DNA from: an uncultured Pelagibacteraceae bacterium
GTDB taxonomy: Bacteria; Pseudomonadota; Alphaproteobacteria; Pelagibacterales; Pelagibacteraceae
NCBI GenBank assembly: GCA_902538915.1
Contig: CACBGZ010000002.1
Span: 1-64,000 of the forward strand
DNA: 64,000 nucleotides
Reading direction: 5' to 3'
Part shown: positions 21,147 to 29,271 of the stretch, piece by piece
How the letters are laid out: each line of letters opens with the position of its first letter
Position numbering within the stretch: the stretch's first letter is position 1
Notes under the pieces: generated by a model
Database searches by the model: none
Seen by the model: only the letters and a program-made list of their open reading frames with translations
What the model was told of the DNA's origin: nothing
Program-made: the position numbers and the translations under genes

Positions 21147-21219
21147 GCCCTTGTAGCTCAGCTGGTAGAGCAATTGATTTGTAATCAATAGGTCCGCGGT
21201 TCGAATCCGTGCGGGGGCA
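21147..21219 (+). tRNA. tRNA-Thr (anticodon TGT)
   Basis: A 73-base cloverleaf with acceptor GCCCTTG/CGGGGGC, anticodon loop TTTGTAA (anticodon TGT) and T-arm CGGTTCGAATCCG. The next bases are CCG, so the 3' CCA is not fully encoded, unlike the other four tRNAs in the window. It follows rlmB on the same strand after 37 bases. Confidence 0.95.
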
Positions 21220-21233
21220 CCGTAAAATTTCAA

Positions 21234-23647: not shown

Positions 23648-23733
23648 TGGTGCCCTCGGCCAGACTCGAACTGGCACTCCGCAAGCGGCAAGGATTTTAA
23701 GTCCTTTGTGTCTACCAATTTCACCACGAGGGC
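23648..23733 (-). tRNA. tRNA-Leu (anticodon TAA), island integration target
   Basis: A complete 86-base class II tRNA: acceptor GCCCTCG/CGAGGGC, anticodon loop CTTAAAA (anticodon TAA), long variable arm, T-arm AGTTCGAGTCT and encoded CCA. Its 5' half, from the anticodon loop through the acceptor and the upstream leader, is repeated at 25518 and 29165. This marks it as the attachment site of two tandem modules on its 5' side. The gene is regenerated intact by the incoming module's own copy. Confidence 0.97.
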
Positions 23734-23802
23734 ATTAATGAATTTCATGAGTATTTATGCTAATATTTATAATTGAACAAGATGAATAAGTAAATTTTTT
23801 TT
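23695..23802. repeat. att copy 1: tRNA-Leu 5' half plus promoter block
   Basis: The first of three direct copies of a roughly 108-bp block. It contains the anticodon loop (TTTTAAG), the rest of the tRNA 5' half to 23734, and 68 more bases covering the likely tRNA promoter. It differs from copy 2 (25518-25625) at one position, near 23782. Identity between copies begins at 23695; upstream of it this copy reads AAGGA (anticodon stem) whereas copies 2 and 3 read CGCC or TGCC. Confidence 0.93.
23752..23780 (-). promoter_or_regulatory. likely promoter of tRNA-Leu
   Basis: On the minus strand TTGTTC (23780-23775) is followed after 17 bases by TAAATA (23757-23752). This places a start about 12 bases before the tRNA. 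The same sequence is present in both other att copies, so each integrated module brings a promoter able to drive the rebuilt tRNA. The boxes match sigma-70 consensus only moderately. Confidence 0.5.
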
Positions 23803-23816
23803 AATTTATCTCTCTA

Positions 23817-23837
23817 GGTACTAGTTTAGTACTAGTT
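23817..23837. repeat. module A left copy of 21-bp direct repeat
   Basis: Two GTACTAGTT units 11 bases apart (starting 23818 and 23829). An identical 21-bp copy is at 25373-25393, so the repeat brackets the two cargo genes. The unit start is 123 bases from the crossover loop. Module B has GCTTCTAGTT units at the equivalent places. Confidence 0.85.
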
Positions 23838-23856: not shown

Positions 23857-24405
23857 TTATTTTTGTCTACAGTTTGTGTGAACAATCTTACTACTACCAA
23901 CTCTTTGCGAAACACAATACATTCTAGGAGTTGAAGTATTTGCTGTTGTACCATATTTAGCATCAACAATAGCATTTAATATTTCATCACCATGATTGTA
24001 TAAAACCCAGGCAGCAGATTCCCAAAATTTCTTTAAAAAACCGTCCTTGTTAGTTTTTTCAATTTTTTCTCCATTTGAATTTTCATAACTAAATGTAAGT
24101 TCAATATTTTCTTTTTCTTTAGCCTCTTTTTGTAAAATATATTCTTGTACAGAAACATAGTCAGAAATAGATTTATCAGATTTGTTTAAAAGATATTGCT
24201 TATGAATATCATTCCCTATTTTAAAATGTTTTGCCATGCATTTGTGCCACGGAGAACCCCAGCTTTTATCTGCCTCGCTAACACCAATATTTCTACAAGA
24301 GTTTGCAGCAAATGCTCTTGTTTTGTCTCCAGAATAATCCATCTCTTTTCCAAAACAACCAGATAAAAGAAAAGCTAAAAGAGTAAAAATTGTAATTTTT
24401 TTCAT
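23857..24405 (-). CDS. predicted lipoprotein of unknown function (module A cargo)
   Basis: A 182-residue protein with a type II signal peptide: KKITIFTLLAFLLSGC, lipobox LSGC with Cys at residue 17, so it should be anchored in a membrane facing the periplasm or surface. The mature part has four more cysteines (in NSCRNIG, WHKCMAKH, MYCVSQ and TNCRQK), allowing disulfides. I do not recognise the family. It starts 8 bases after the DUF4268 stop. It is also flanked by 15-bp direct repeats (23840-23854, 24413-24427), so it may be a separately gained cassette. In a defence module a surface lipoprotein could act in phage exclusion, which is conjecture. Confidence 0.7.
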   Translation of the reverse strand: MKKITIFTLLAFLLSGCFGKEMDYSGDKTRAFAANSCRNIGVSEADKSWGSPWHKCMAKHFKIGNDIHKQYLLNKSDKSISDYVSVQEYILQKEAKEKENIELTFSYENSNGEKIEKTNKDGFLKKFWESAAWVLYNHGDEILNAIVDAKYGTTANTSTPRMYCVSQRVGSSKIVHTNCRQK

Positions 24406-24412
24406 TAGATAA

Positions 24413-24427
24413 CCTATAAAATCCTAT
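24413..24427. repeat. 15-bp direct repeat between module A genes
   Basis: CCTATAAAATCCTAT, identical to 23840-23854 in the same orientation. It overlaps the last codons and stop of the DUF4268 gene. The lipoprotein gene is thereby bracketed by two copies. Confidence 0.7.
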
Positions 24428-25355
24428 CTAATTCTTTTATCGGACCTTTGAAAGCTTTTTCTAATTTAATCAAATGATCTACTAAAAAATTGTGAATATC
24501 TTCCCATGTTTCTTCATCTTGAAAACCTCCTAAATCAGATTTAAATGTTATTCTACAAGCCCTAGAGTCATCTAGTCTTTTCCATTCTAATTCATTACCA
24601 AAATCTTTTTCAATAGATGTTTTATGCTTTTCCAAATGATTATAAATTTTTAAATTTGCCTCTTTACCTTCTTCTTTTCCTCTATCAATGTATATTTCTA
24701 CTTGACCAGATCTATTCATTGCAGCAACAAGATAATTAACCCCTCTTACACCAGCACTTACACCCATATAATTTCTGCCTTTTGGAGCTGTATTACTGTA
24801 GATATTACTTTTTTGTTTTAATTTTTCATAAAAAGCTGACCAAAAATTAAATTTAATTTTCTCTTTTTCCGAGTCTTCTTCCTTAATTTTTCCAACCTTT
24901 GTAATATTTTCATCTGGTCCTGATAATAAAAAAAATTGAGCTCCAGGCTCGCTATCTTTGATTTTAAAAACTTGAATTTTTACTAAAAAAAATAAACATG
25001 TTTTTACATTGGCATTGAGCCATTCAATTGCTCTGTGGTGCTCTGGTTTAACATCTTCTACTATCCAAATAGCTTTTTTTGTATTTTCCACATTACTTAT
25101 ATAGGTTAATAACTTACCTAAATGATCGTGATCAGATTTTTCAAATTGATTTTCAATTATTACTTTTCCCTGATCATCCTCAGCTACTATATCTACTTTA
25201 AAAGTATCTAATTTTTTTTCACTTTCAGGATCTTGAATATTTAATCCTAGATCTTCATTAAGTAATGCAATGTTCTGGACTAACCATGGTGTAAAATCTC
25301 TATCTTCTGTCTTCCAGATATCTCTTATTTTTTGTTTTTTAAGTCTTGAAACCAT
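24414..25355 (-). CDS. DUF4268 domain protein with PD-(D/E)XK nuclease-like fold (module A cargo)
   Basis: A 313-residue protein. The N-terminal part has the pattern D55 ... E68-N-Q70 (FKVDIV, then VIIENQ) followed by SDHDHLGKLLTY. This is the PD-(D/E)XK nuclease-like core with glutamine in place of the usual lysine that characterises these proteins. The C-terminal half (NFWSAFYEKLKQKS to the end) matches the DUF4268 domain, often found in mobile and defence loci. A role in restriction or DNA repair is likely but not shown; no methyltransferase partner is adjacent. The start lies 18 bases from a 21-bp module repeat that could carry its promoter or operator. Confidence 0.75.
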   Translation of the reverse strand: MVSRLKKQKIRDIWKTEDRDFTPWLVQNIALLNEDLGLNIQDPESEKKLDTFKVDIVAEDDQGKVIIENQFEKSDHDHLGKLLTYISNVENTKKAIWIVEDVKPEHHRAIEWLNANVKTCLFFLVKIQVFKIKDSEPGAQFFLLSGPDENITKVGKIKEEDSEKEKIKFNFWSAFYEKLKQKSNIYSNTAPKGRNYMGVSAGVRGVNYLVAAMNRSGQVEIYIDRGKEEGKEANLKIYNHLEKHKTSIEKDFGNELEWKRLDDSRACRITFKSDLGGFQDEETWEDIHNFLVDHLIKLEKAFKGPIKELDRIL

Positions 25356-25517
25356 AAATATTTATCTCTTAAGGTACTAGTTTAGTACTAGTTTGACAAA
25401 AATAATTATTAAGAATTTTAAATAAAATAATCTTTATATTTTCAGAACTTATAGGATTTTAAAGGATTTAGACTGCTCTGGACTACTATGGACTGACTTT
25501 TACTTCTATCCCTCGCC
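25356..25517. other. module A right arm
   Basis: A gene-free stretch. It holds the 21-bp repeat, an AT-rich segment, ATAGGATTTTAAAGGAT at 25451-25467 (inverted partner of 23838-23854), and three GACT units at 25471, 25481 and 25491. The GACT units are spaced one helical turn apart and the last is 27 bases from the crossover loop. It resembles a recombinase arm or accessory-protein region. Confidence 0.65.
25373..25393. repeat. module A right copy of 21-bp direct repeat
   Basis: Perfect copy of 23817-23837. Its first GTACTAGTT unit starts at 25374, 144 bases before the crossover loop of att copy 2. On the minus strand it lies just upstream of the DUF4268 gene, overlapping the region expected for its promoter. 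Confidence 0.85.
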
Positions 25518-25625
25518 TTTTAAGTCCTTTGTGTCTACCAATTTCACCACGAGGGCATTAATGAATTTCATGAGTATTTATGCTAATATTTATAATTGAA
25601 CAAGATTAATAAGTAAATTTTTTTT
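25518..25625. repeat. att copy 2: partial tRNA-Leu plus promoter block
   Basis: Direct copy of 23695-23802 with a single mismatch. It contains only the tRNA 5' half, so it is not a functional tRNA. It forms the junction between modules A and B. Upstream of the loop it reads CTCGCC instead of the anticodon stem. Confidence 0.93.
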
Positions 25626-25638
25626 ATTTTATCTATCT

Positions 25639-25660
25639 GGCTTCTAGTTAGCTTCTAGTT
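25639..25660. repeat. module B left tandem repeat
   Basis: Two GCTTCTAGTT units 11 bases apart, starting 25640 and 25651; the first lies 122 bases from the crossover loop, against 123 in module A. It is directly followed by ATCCTACAAAATCCTAG (25661-25677), the counterpart of the module A end motif; the stop codon of the small gene (25674-25676) lies inside this motif. Confidence 0.75.
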
Positions 25661-25673
25661 ATCCTACAAAATC

Positions 25674-26012
25674 CTAGAGCCAATCACTACACCAGGTAAA
25701 TACATCTGCTTCAAATTTTATATCATTAAATTTAAGCAGTTGTTTGTATCTTTCTAATCTATGCTTTTTATCAAACTTAGTGAGGAAATTGTATATTTTA
25801 TCATAATTTAATCCCTTCAGATCTGTTTTTTTTATATCTACATATTCTTCATAATCTAAACCACATATAGAAAATTTTTTTTTAGGATCAATATGTTCTG
25901 AGTAGCTAATGGTGTCTTTACTCTCTTTTAATATATCATAATAATGAGCCACTTCATTATTTCTCTCAAAAAGATAATCTTTTCTGAAATCAAACAGTTC
26001 AAGTTGTTGCAT
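25674..26012 (-). CDS. small hypothetical protein with sliding-clamp-like motif (module B cargo)
   Basis: With the ATG at 26012 the product has 112 residues and begins MQQLELFDFRKDYLFERN. A TTG start at 26051 would add 13 residues, but the ATG is more credible. Residues 3-7, QLELF, fit the bacterial beta-clamp-binding consensus (QL[SD]LF) at an exposed N-terminus. The rest is charged and soluble with no recognised domain (SICGLDYEEYVDIKKTDL in the middle). It lies downstream of the large restriction-modification gene by about 100 bases, so it could be a partner, an anti-host factor or a replication-targeting protein. Function unknown. Confidence 0.6.
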   Translation of the reverse strand: MQQLELFDFRKDYLFERNNEVAHYYDILKESKDTISYSEHIDPKKKFSICGLDYEEYVDIKKTDLKGLNYDKIYNFLTKFDKKHRLERYKQLLKFNDIKFEADVFTWCSDWL

Positions 26013-26112
26013 ATATTTGGAATTGTTAAAGTTAGAAATAAACTTTAACAATAATTAATATAATTAGCAAAAATGGCAGAAGTTTGGTTGATCAATCAAA
26101 ATATTAAAAAAT

Positions 26113-28992
26113 TTACAAAAGGTTATTATTAAATATTTCATCTACAAATTGTAAAGCTTCCTCATGATTTTTAAACTTAAAAAACTTTTCTTTCATTTTT
26201 TTACTAATTAATTGTCTGATTTCTATTTCTGGATAAGGGATTTTGAAACTCTTCAGTGTAGGTTGGTTAATACCACCCTGACCTCCTTTGGTTGATGCGT
26301 AATTAATATATTTTCTAAAGTTTGATGAATACAAGTATGCAAATGTATACCAATAATCTAATTCCGGTTTTAGTCTCAATATAAATACATGTTCATTGAC
26401 AATAGCTTTTTGCTGTAAGTTATTATGCACTAAAATTGTTTTACCCGACCTAGCTCCATCTTTTGTAATTAAAATGTCATTTTTTTTAATAGTCCATTTA
26501 GCTGGACAAGTTGAAAAGTATTCTTCACTTACAAATTCTTTTGATGATAAATCAAATTCACCCCCTTCACCAAGATGTCCTCCACCAATAGACAATACAC
26601 CTTTTTCTATTCTACCAGTGCCTCCTTTTGGTCTTTTACCAGATATCAAATCATCGAGAATAAATTCTTTTAGAGGTATAAAATCGCAATTAAAATTAGG
26701 TGTTAAATCCTCTTCCAAAAAGGGATTAAAAGTACCATCTTTAGAAACAAATTTTTTAAAGTCTAGATATAGTAAAATATCTTTAAATTTATCATTTTTT
26801 GATTTTGAGTTTTTAAAATATTTTTCTAAATTTTCACCTAAAAGTATTTTTTTTACATAATAAGAAATATAATTCTCATCATTAGTTTTTTCTTCATTGA
26901 ATAAAATACCATCATTAAAAGTTTGAATGCCCTCAAATCCACGCCTTTCAGAAAACTCATAACCAAGTAATTTTTTTTGTTTTTTTGATTTTTTGTCATC
27001 AGGTGGATCCAAATCAGCAATCAAAATTTTATCATTATTGGGTTTATTTTTTCTGATCATAAACAAAATCATTGTTCTCATAGGGGTTTTTCTGAATGCT
27101 TTGTCCCCAAGTTTTATCAACGCTTTAATTTCAAAATTCTCTAAAAGAAACTCTCTGGTATTAGAATTAATTTCATCAGTTGTAGTTAATAAGGACCTTG
27201 GTACAATTACCCCAATAATTCCATTTTCCTTTAAAAGCTGTTTTGCCCTCTCTAAAAATAAACATTCAATTTTATCACTAGTAGGGCTTAAATATTTATA
27301 TAATGAAAAATTATTTTCCCCATCGATAATTCTATTTTTAAAATTATCAACTGAGTATGGGGGATTTGCTACAATTATATCAAACACTTGATTATTTTGA
27401 TCGCTCTTTTCAGATTTTAATAATTTTTTATAATCATGGTTATAGAATGGAAGTAAACCATCGGTGCAAAAAGTATTTGCATCACCATCTCCATTGAGAA
27501 ATGAATTTACTTTTGTTGTTTTTGCTAGTCTGTAATCTTTTTCAATTGCATAAACATATTCATTGCACCATTTATAATTCTTTTTATTCTGAGTGAAATT
27601 ATCAACAGCAGTTTTTCCTCCCTCAATCTCTTTAATGTTTAACTCATCAATTACTTTTTGAATTAATGAAATCATTTCAGTAATAAAATGACCACTACCT
27701 GATGCATAATCAATTACATAAGGTAAGAAATTTATATCCTTATTTTTATTCTTATTTTTAATAATATTTTCAATAGGAATACTATTACAAATAAAAGATG
27801 CTAAAGGTATTGGCGTAAAAAATTGTCCAGATTCTTGTTTAATCCCTGTATCTAAAATTTTTTCAAAAAAGTCACCAAGATATTGATGCTTTGTACTGTA
27901 TTTAAGTTTATAAGTTTGTAAAAGTTGAACAATTGATTTTACAATAAATGCATTTTCTTCAAAAGTTTTTTTGTTAAAAATTTCTTTGAATTCAAATTCA
28001 TTAGAAACAATTGATGTATTTTCATTTAATTTAAGGTACTTTTTGAAGCTATTTAAATTCTTAAAATCATCTTCAATTAAATTATTTTTACTATCAAAAA
28101 TATCAACATTTAAATAATTTTTTGTGCCTTTTATATAAAGATCTTTTAATCTTTTAATAAACGAAGTGTAGTCGTCACTTTCTAACCACTGAAAATCTAA
28201 AGATTTTTTAAAGTTTTGATCCTCATCAAAAATTTTACAAATAAATAAATTAAAAATCTTATTAAATGCATTTGTTTTATCAGAAACAATATTCCTCCTT
28301 AATATTTCAGCAAATTGGTTAAAAATGTAACCACCATCATCTGAATTTATATCCCTTAAATCACTATAGTCTAATCTTTCTATACCTAGTTCGTAAGGTT
28401 TTTTACCCTCTTCAAATAAACCTTTAGATATAAAAATTTTGTCCCATTTTTCGTATAAATCTTTCAAATTTTTTGAGGATGACATTTCTTTGGTTGGAAG
28501 AAAATAATCGTATTGTCTTTGAATAGTGTCTTTTTCAAATTTTGATGTATAAATAGAAACAATCTTAGTATCTTTTTCATTTAAAAAATAACTGAGTAAT
28601 TGGTTTTTCTTCCAATCAGTTGTTGTTTTTTCTTTTGAATTATTAAACTCTTTACCAAAAGTCTTACAATCAATTAAGGCCCAAGATTTTTTTTTATTGT
28701 CTAAAATTTGTACATCACAATAACCAGCGCCAGCATTATGCCCAAGAGAAAAAGGTTTTTCTAAAACTATATTCTCACTGTTATAGCCAATATTTAGTAG
28801 TTTAATTACAAATTCTAAAACAACTAAATTTTCCTGTTTTTCTTTTAAATCATTTATTGTCTTTCGGTGAATTTTTATATCACCATAATCAATTACGAAA
28901 TCTTCTGAAACATATATTTTATTTTTTCCTTTTGAGAATAAATAAGAATTCTCTTTTTCTTTAAAATTTAATAAAGATAAATATTTTTTCAT
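26113..28992 (-). CDS. single-chain restriction-modification enzyme (nuclease + N6-adenine methylase + specificity domain)
   Basis: A 959-residue protein that appears to combine all three restriction functions. Residues about 60-110 form a PD-(D/E)XK-like nuclease (E60, D93 in YCDVQIL, D108-C-K110). Residues about 370-560 are an N6-adenine methyltransferase: GQFFTP (389-394), motif I DYASGSGHF (428-436) and catalytic NPPY (543-546). Residues about 765-945 resemble one HsdS-type target-recognition domain (FIPLKEFI, WTIKKNDILITKDGARSGK, GGINQPTLKSFKIP). This is a type IIG / fused type I-like layout that cuts unmodified DNA and protects its own. No separate hsdR, M or S gene is nearby. It starts 29 bases from the module repeat pair. 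Confidence 0.85.
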   Translation of the reverse strand: MKKYLSLLNFKEKENSYLFSKGKNKIYVSEDFVIDYGDIKIHRKTINDLKEKQENLVVLEFVIKLLNIGYNSENIVLEKPFSLGHNAGAGYCDVQILDNKKKSWALIDCKTFGKEFNNSKEKTTTDWKKNQLLSYFLNEKDTKIVSIYTSKFEKDTIQRQYDYFLPTKEMSSSKNLKDLYEKWDKIFISKGLFEEGKKPYELGIERLDYSDLRDINSDDGGYIFNQFAEILRRNIVSDKTNAFNKIFNLFICKIFDEDQNFKKSLDFQWLESDDYTSFIKRLKDLYIKGTKNYLNVDIFDSKNNLIEDDFKNLNSFKKYLKLNENTSIVSNEFEFKEIFNKKTFEENAFIVKSIVQLLQTYKLKYSTKHQYLGDFFEKILDTGIKQESGQFFTPIPLASFICNSIPIENIIKNKNKNKDINFLPYVIDYASGSGHFITEMISLIQKVIDELNIKEIEGGKTAVDNFTQNKKNYKWCNEYVYAIEKDYRLAKTTKVNSFLNGDGDANTFCTDGLLPFYNHDYKKLLKSEKSDQNNQVFDIIVANPPYSVDNFKNRIIDGENNFSLYKYLSPTSDKIECLFLERAKQLLKENGIIGVIVPRSLLTTTDEINSNTREFLLENFEIKALIKLGDKAFRKTPMRTMILFMIRKNKPNNDKILIADLDPPDDKKSKKQKKLLGYEFSERRGFEGIQTFNDGILFNEEKTNDENYISYYVKKILLGENLEKYFKNSKSKNDKFKDILLYLDFKKFVSKDGTFNPFLEEDLTPNFNCDFIPLKEFILDDLISGKRPKGGTGRIEKGVLSIGGGHLGEGGEFDLSSKEFVSEEYFSTCPAKWTIKKNDILITKDGARSGKTILVHNNLQQKAIVNEHVFILRLKPELDYWYTFAYLYSSNFRKYINYASTKGGQGGINQPTLKSFKIPYPEIEIRQLISKKMKEKFFKFKNHEEALQFVDEIFNNNLL

Positions 28993-29164
28993 TTATTAAC
29001 CATATATTTTTATCCCTACAGCTTCTAGTGTACTTCTAGTTTGAGAGAATTTACTAACCATATTTTTCAATAAAAATAAGTGTGAGTTTTTAAAAGTGTA
29101 AGATTTTGTGATTTTAAGATTGTATGAGACTACCAGAGACTAACTAAATTGTGAATCCTCTGCC
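28993..29164. other. module B right arm
   Basis: Gene-free. It holds the repeat pair GCTTCTAGT / ACTTCTAGT (29021-29042, first unit 144 bases from the loop, as in module A). GATTTT at 29102 is 63 bases from the loop, as in module A. GAGACTA units at 29126 and 29136 are 10 bases apart, with GAC 27 bases from the loop, as in module A. The sequence between these signals differs from module A. Confidence 0.65.
29021..29042. repeat. module B right tandem repeat
   Basis: GCTTCTAGT followed 11 bases later by ACTTCTAGTTT. It is an imperfect partner of 25639-25660 and brackets the module B cargo. Confidence 0.7.
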
Positions 29165-29271
29165 TTTTAAGTCCTTTGTGTCTACCAATTTCACCACGAG
29201 GGCATCTGTTATTTTCATGAGTGTTTATGCTAATATTTATAATTTAACAAGATGAATAAGTAAATTTTTTT
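29165..29271. repeat. att copy 3: displaced chromosomal tRNA-Leu 5' half
   Basis: The outermost copy. The 40 bases of the tRNA half are identical to copies 1 and 2, while the leader differs at several places just beyond the acceptor (TCTGTTAT instead of TTAATGAA). No tandem repeat or ATCC motif follows it, so it is probably the original chromosomal end of attB. From 29272 to the next gene nothing recognisable is seen. Confidence 0.88.

Follow-up and report, generated by a model that had tools for sequence, protein, structure and literature searches.

How does a tRNA gene keep a promoter when mobile elements enter it from its 5' side? The question is raised by a 64,000-nt stretch of DNA from an uncultured Pelagibacteraceae bacterium (hereafter the window; its genome comprises about 0.95 Mb in 24 contigs), in which one tRNA-Leu(UAA) gene is associated with two modules, M1 and M2, and in which the 5' half of the gene and the leader in front of it occur three times. 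An earlier note on this DNA had proposed that every insertion rebuilds both the tRNA half and its promoter, with element-borne promoters taking the place of that of the host. The repeated parts are as follows.

23648..23733, minus strand: tRNA-Leu(UAA), chimeric, with its 5' half from M1 and a resident 3' half (ARAGORN)
23695..23733, minus strand: tRNA 5' half, copy 1, 39 nt, GCCCTCGTGGTGAAATTGGTAGACACAAAGGACTTAAAA (copy comparison)
25518..25556, minus strand: tRNA 5' half, copy 2, displaced upon M1 entry (exact repeat of copy 1)
29165..29203, minus strand: tRNA 5' half, copy 3, outermost, the displaced resident copy (exact repeat of copy 1)
23734..23800, minus strand: in-use leader cassette, type A, -1 to -67, putative tRNA promoter carried by M1 (column conservation, copy comparison)
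25557..25623, minus strand: copy 2 leader, M2-derived, now aimed into M1 (copy comparison)
29204..29270, minus strand: copy 3 leader, outermost, also type A, now aimed into M2 (copy comparison)

Read in the direction of the tRNA, the order is leader and half (copy 3), M2, leader and half (copy 2), M1, and leader and intact tRNA (copy 1), the next gene being one with an NAD-kinase domain. The gene at 23648-23733 is the sole intact tRNA-Leu(UAA) copy found, and the complete relative G012, for which 30 tRNAs were read, likewise shows tRNA-Leu(UAA) once. The 39-nt half GCCCTCGTGGTGAAATTGGTAGACACAAAGGACTTAAAA is without any difference across the three copies, which part company exactly after GGACTTAAAA, placing the crossover in the anticodon loop (AAGGA-CTTAAAA-TCCTT), flanked by the anticodon stem AAGGA/TCCTT. 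A loop between stem arms is the usual shape of a tyrosine-recombinase core. A displaced 5' fragment thus lies upstream of an intact tRNA gene in the same orientation, the layout that defines 5'-fragment islands. The repeat of leader and half was present in 45 of the 61 genomes searched, on at least 119 contig stretches, which excludes chance; the relatives sharing it are assigned to Pelagibacteraceae, Pelagibacterales or Ca. Pelagibacter.

We hold it to be highly probable that elements enter the anticodon loop, replace the 5' half of the gene together with its promoter, and stack as modules. An element would integrate by recombination at the anticodon loop of the one tRNA-Leu(UAA) gene, its attP being oriented so that the 5' half, and not the 3' half, is replaced. 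Because such integration parts the gene from its promoter, every attP would carry in succession an element-specific repeat pair, a leader with a promoter, the tRNA 5' half and the core. Integration would put the 3' half already in place behind the leader and 5' half of the element, which would then express the tRNA, and would shift the previous leader and 5' half to the far end of the element; with repeated insertion, modules would stack, each leaving one leader and half behind. Of this, the sequences themselves show the anatomy, where the crossover falls, that leaders are replaced and also occur in free attP sites, that the end repeats match, and that no recognised integrase is present in the modules.

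A neighbouring tRNA gene, tRNA-Thr (21147-21221, plus strand), looks like an ordinary 3'-end integration hotspot, and 46-53 nt of the 3' part of tRNA-Thr recur nearby in G002, G004, G010, G016 and G017.

Extent and conservation of the leader cassette

The 68-base repeat beyond the tRNA that the earlier note described is right within one base: it starts at 23734, not 23735, and ends at about 23801. For the study of its conservation, the columns of type-A leaders were anchored at the tRNA 5' end, within a sample of 242 distinct leader copies coming mostly from relatives. In the 45 type-A in-use copies that are without the element's end motif, conservation ends abruptly at -67; copies with the element's own end (the repeat pair plus GAGAGATAAAATAA) are conserved farther upstream. 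The sharp edge at -67 where the element's end is absent indicates that the 68-bp leader is a real unit. Two boxes lie within it:

23775..23780, minus strand: -35-like TTGTTC, the first five bases invariant in the 70 pair-bearing in-use copies
23752..23757, minus strand: -10-like TAAATA at 17-bp spacing, 99-100% conserved in pair-bearing in-use copies except for the T/C column -20

Most columns of the cassette are about 96-100% conserved, also in the copies that have lost the element's end, and columns -51 to -49, -20, -9, -7, -5, -4 and -3 vary in every group of copies. Since these free columns stand beside near-invariant neighbours, the conservation of the cassette reflects constraint and not recent copying alone. 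Conservation of the type-A leader reaches 0.96, as against 0.48 for tRNA-Thr leaders of the same genomes (a set that was anchored, not aligned), and it takes in the promoter spacer too. The type-A leader is thus conserved beyond an ordinary tRNA promoter and may hold more than a promoter; a second role is possible. The triplet -51 to -49 (window 23782-23784), which varies freely within an otherwise near-invariant leader, is a feature of its own.

Exchange of leaders at the tRNA-Leu(UAA) site

The differences between the three window leaders agree with those reported earlier: a single base, at -51, separates copies 1 and 2 over the 68 bases, and the copy at 29165 differs from copy 1 at eight leader positions (-69, -42, -20, -9, -7, -5, -4, -3). 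Six of the eight fall at variable columns and -69 lies just outside the cassette, leaving only -42 in a conserved block. We therefore rejected the copy 3 differences as a sign of host origin, nearly all of them being in polymorphic columns, and with seven of the eight at variable columns or outside the cassette the window alone gives no proof of a foreign promoter. The claim that an element promoter replaced that of the host finds no support in the window alone, because the displaced copy is also of type A, so that A replaced A.

Other sites are more telling. The replacement test covered 59 occupied sites at which the outermost displaced and the in-use copies were both readable, comparing the last 50 nt of their leaders. 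The two leaders share less than 60% identity at 10 of these sites and at most 70% at 19, and the type changes both ways, from another type to A at L075 and from A to another type at L163. The displaced copy of L095, where the in-use leader is of type A, equals the native-looking leader of L243, L244 and L256, which show no module in the stretch read. In the single-cell genome AG-903-K07 (L356), a 7.8-kb integrase-bearing element sits at the tRNA-Leu(UAA) site with a type-A leader on the displaced copy, and the in-use tRNA stands under the element's own unrelated leader. In SAG-MED01 (L354/L355), the tRNA received an unrelated leader from a 10.2-kb element, along with a 5' half bearing two changes (GTGATGAAATTGGTAGACATAAAGG) that the displaced copies upstream do not have; ARAGORN recognises this tRNA all the same. 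At these elements, as in the 10-19 unrelated swaps among the 59 sites, the element leader becomes the in-use leader on integration, in the manner of pTN3-type elements.

The leader is also found in free attP sites. The L212 sequence, 7.7 kb long with 99-bp terminal repeats and of the same family as L356, has pair, leader and half, and so do the attP sites of L215-L217, free relatives of the L356 element. The phage HTVC105P holds the same tRNA half 82 nt after its integrase gene, preceded by an unrelated leader (TTGAAG-17-TATACA-15 nt). The exact leader and half were not found in viral contigs, six of which match a shorter core pattern. Taken with the unrelated leader pairs, L356 and L354/L355, these free sites bear out the proposal that an element-borne leader and 5' half displace the resident leader, and it is strongly supported that elements bring their own leader.

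Type A itself is no mark of element origin. The TTAATGAA leader is carried by in-use copies without module ends (in G024, G033 and G002, and in the 45 type-A copies without the pair), that is, also in strains with no module end beside the tRNA. Type A as an element-specific leader was rejected on this ground. The presence of TTAATGAA in module-free strains, which the earlier note had counted as refuting, shows only that the type is also resident and does not refute replacement.

Two further observations concern the variety at this site. Leader type E, an unusual one, is common to L200, from another genus of the family, and L112, which suggests from sequence likeness a transfer between genera with elements. 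The in-use tRNA-Leu half at L355:1392-1430 carries the two element-derived substitutions, meaning that elements alter the tRNA sequence besides the promoter.

Cargo modules and their probable mobilisation

The remaining features of M1 and M2 are listed here.

23818..23837, minus strand: M1 proximal direct-repeat pair, GTACTAGTTTA GTACTAGTT on the plus strand, element-specific, putative arm-type site, with GAGAGATAAA on its tRNA side (sequence)
23857..24405, minus strand: M1 ORF, 182 aa, no family found (orphan; ORF and domain search)
24414..25355, minus strand: M1 ORF, 313 aa, DUF4268, candidate defence family PDC-S11 (domain search)
25374..25393, minus strand: M1 distal pair, repeat same as proximal (sequence)
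25394..25517, minus strand: M1 P' arm, AGTC direct repeats adjoining the core (sequence)
25640..25660, minus strand: M2 proximal pair, GCTTCTAGTTA GCTTCTAGTT on the plus strand (sequence)
25674..26051, minus strand: M2 ORF, 125 aa, orphan (ORF)
26113..28992, minus strand: M2 ORF, 959 aa, type IIG restriction-modification, N6_Mtase and specificity domain (domain search)
29021..29041, minus strand: M2 distal pair (sequence)
29042..29164, minus strand: M2 P' arm (sequence)

M1 is about 1.8 kb and M2 about 3.6 kb long, within a module range of 742 bp to 7.7 kb (median 1.9 kb), and arrays reach several modules. The 87 module proteins searched (Pfam, PADLOC, PHROGs) represent mixed cargo, and no integrase is found in the best 25 families listed for them. 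In two other modules, L036 and L066, relatives of the M2 125-aa ORF are found next to restriction-modification ORFs.

A typical module carries two pairs of direct repeats with a period of 11 bp, one near the end closest to the tRNA and the other at the opposite end, 122-128 bp past the core. Pair sequences vary from module to module, but the two ends of a given module agree (54 modules, with 0 of 2000 random pairings as good). We read these pairs as arm-type integrase sites, and their sequences could possibly form an integrase-compatibility code.

Domain searches recognised no integrase gene inside M1 or M2. The one Phage_integrase match of the genome sits on another contig, and the same-genus genomes searched have at most one such protein each, away from the tRNA-Leu site; in one of them it appears as two fragments of one frame. 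The L356 element encodes a 545-aa Phage_integrase protein and a primase-like protein, and the integrase ORF is whole within the element, without the int(N)/int(C) interruption of the pTN3 type. The L354/L355 element encodes a 531-aa protein related to the L212 integrase (31% identity, no Pfam match). Both L212 and L356 have an integrase gene, placed first after the core, and a primase-like gene; M1 and M2 have neither. VEIMEs and tycheposons are phage satellites having an integrase and a replication gene and no structural genes. The 7.7-7.8 kb integrase and primase elements L212, L215-L217 and L356 are likely phage satellites and candidate helpers. With the L212 integrase as query, no match was obtained in 121 genomes of relatives, which suggests that assembled genomes seldom contain such elements (L086/L356 being one). 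Given that the modules are without integrase and that the first 42 nt of the M2 P' arm beside the core are identical to L356, mobilisation of M1 and M2 in trans by an L356-like element would be likeliest. M1 and M2 were probably inserted by the tyrosine recombinase of another element, for example of the 7.8-kb satellite type L356/L212.

An extension of this explanation, to which we give somewhat less than an even chance, is that promoters are exchanged, the element giving the tRNA a promoter and taking the displaced leader for its own cargo, so that the array would act as an integron driven by a tRNA promoter. While the element is still free, its leader would transcribe its genes; after integration this would fall to the displaced leader. 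Module ORFs run in the direction of the tRNA in 113 of 124 cases (p about 2e-22), and the first of them starts at a median of 178 nt past the core (IQR 172-202), so that the displaced leader aims into the cargo. In the window and several other modules this first ORF starts about 30 nt after the distal repeat pair, leaving little space for a private promoter, and the window has no terminator-like site between the displaced leaders and the cargo. The integrase gene comes first past the core in L212 and L356, and the leader of the free circle aims at it. On the other hand, the P' arm, about 125 nt long, AT-rich and partly conserved, could hold a promoter, and 7 of 65 modules open with an opposed ORF. 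A "spare" promoter, as the earlier note had it, may be the wrong word for a leader that aims into module genes and may be in use. More tentatively still, the whole array could be run by an in-trans integrase matched to the arm code, each insertion bringing a new tRNA promoter and the displaced promoter running promoterless, often defence, cargo, like the Pc of integrons.

The leader as a putative promoter, and known systems

We infer that the leader is an active tRNA promoter. The boxes reported before are present as TTGTTC-17-TAAATA, and their match alone is not above chance: in a sigma-70 consensus scan of this AT-rich DNA the window leaders did no better than shuffles, and leaders in general were not consistently above them. 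Most ordinary SAR11 tRNA leaders of the complete relative also fail the scan, which accordingly has little power. A skeleton TTG-N18-20-TAxAxx occurs near the tRNA in 8 of 12 leader types (it was chosen post hoc, and some types are mutually related) and is missing from the other 4; in ordinary tRNA leaders it is enriched, at 10 of 30 as against about 10% by chance. As tRNA-Leu(UAA) is single in G012, the loss of its promoter should be lethal. At L182, L201 and L233, tRNA-Leu adjoins the end of the upstream gene with no leader between, so a nearby promoter is not always needed; this layout is perhaps an older operon arrangement.

An ATG shortly after the -10-like box was noticed in several unrelated leader types, at -15 in the window (23746-23748) and at -27 in the L212 family. 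The ATG shares its frame with an open reading across the tRNA half (ALVVKLVDTKDLK), and the combined motif, noticed post hoc, is absent from 30 ordinary tRNA leaders.

The leader could instead be conserved as part of the attachment site, bound by the integrase or an accessory factor, its likeness to a promoter being incidental. It does lie beside the core and inside attP, and most of -67 to -10 is near-invariant, spacer included. However, unrelated leader sequences hold the same place in attP, the free attP sites of other families having wholly different ones there, in-use copies without the pair retain the leader and lose the adjoining element sequence, and sites with unrelated leaders are equally good targets, which makes this account improbable. 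Stacking by homologous recombination or duplication instead of site-specific integration, for which the lack of an integrase in M1 and M2, the wide sharing of leader variants and the hybrid leaders at L042, L072 and L109 might speak, is very improbable, given copies that diverge exactly at the anticodon loop, matched repeat pairs at the two ends of each element, and circular attP forms and integrase-bearing elements at the same site.

The replacement of the 5' half and its promoter by stacking elements has partial parallels. In the Islander database, 5'-fragment islands number 159 of 3919, the other 3760 being 3'-fragment islands (PMC4383910). They resemble the present modules in their tyrosine-recombinase-type crossover at the anticodon loop and in the intact tRNA with a co-oriented upstream 5' fragment, and differ in that M1 and M2 lack an integrase, modules frequently fall below 2 kb, and arrays of several modules occur. 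Without integrase and often under 2 kb, modules would fail the Islander integrase and length filters; M1 is shorter than the 2 kb minimum, and M2 is longer.

The usual view is that an element entering a tRNA gene leaves it with the promoter it had before (Williams 2002, as cited in PMC8371274), and the same review describes tRNA expression from an element promoter as seldom met in bacteria. Element-supplied tRNA promoters are thus already known but rare. For the pTN3-like archaeal elements, whose attB is a tRNA 5' half, the promoter of the element's integrase reportedly drives the restored tRNA (PMC8371274). As here, the 5' half of the tRNA gene is targeted and the element leader is in use; the present case differs in being bacterial, in its integrase-less cargo modules, and in the many unrelated leader types swapped at one site.

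Among phages, the integrase-bearing T7-like cyanophages P-SSP7 and S-TIP37 target tRNA-Leu, and the accessible portions of the two reports (PMC8776855; PMC3861242) do not discuss promoter replacement. Integrase-bearing pelagiphages and cyanophages share with the elements described here an integrase followed by an attP matching tRNA-Leu, and HTVC105P has the same 5' half with its own promoter-like leader. Such phages differ in being autonomous (42 kb for HTVC105P) and in having another leader and other arms. In the tRNA-dependent lysogeny of mycobacteriophages, a single essential host tRNA is likewise cut off from its normal expression and the element provides the remedy, promoter included, but the phage brings a whole tRNA gene elsewhere (PMC10865867), whereas here promoter and 5' half come within attP itself.

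Relative to the literature examined, what is new is the routine exchange of several unrelated leaders at one SAR11 tRNA gene, the stacked integrase-less cargo modules of 1-4 kb, and the matched arm code, although tycheposons and VEIMEs may overlap with these. SAR11 are among the commonest bacteria of the sea, and in them mobile elements routinely replace the upstream control region of a tRNA gene present once in G012; natural before-and-after sites make promoter replacement directly testable. The finding suggests a route by which cargo of 1-4 kb without integrase or obvious promoter may be maintained. SAR11 cells appear to trade tRNA promoters with each cassette landing, which suggests that tRNA expression may shift with each element gained.
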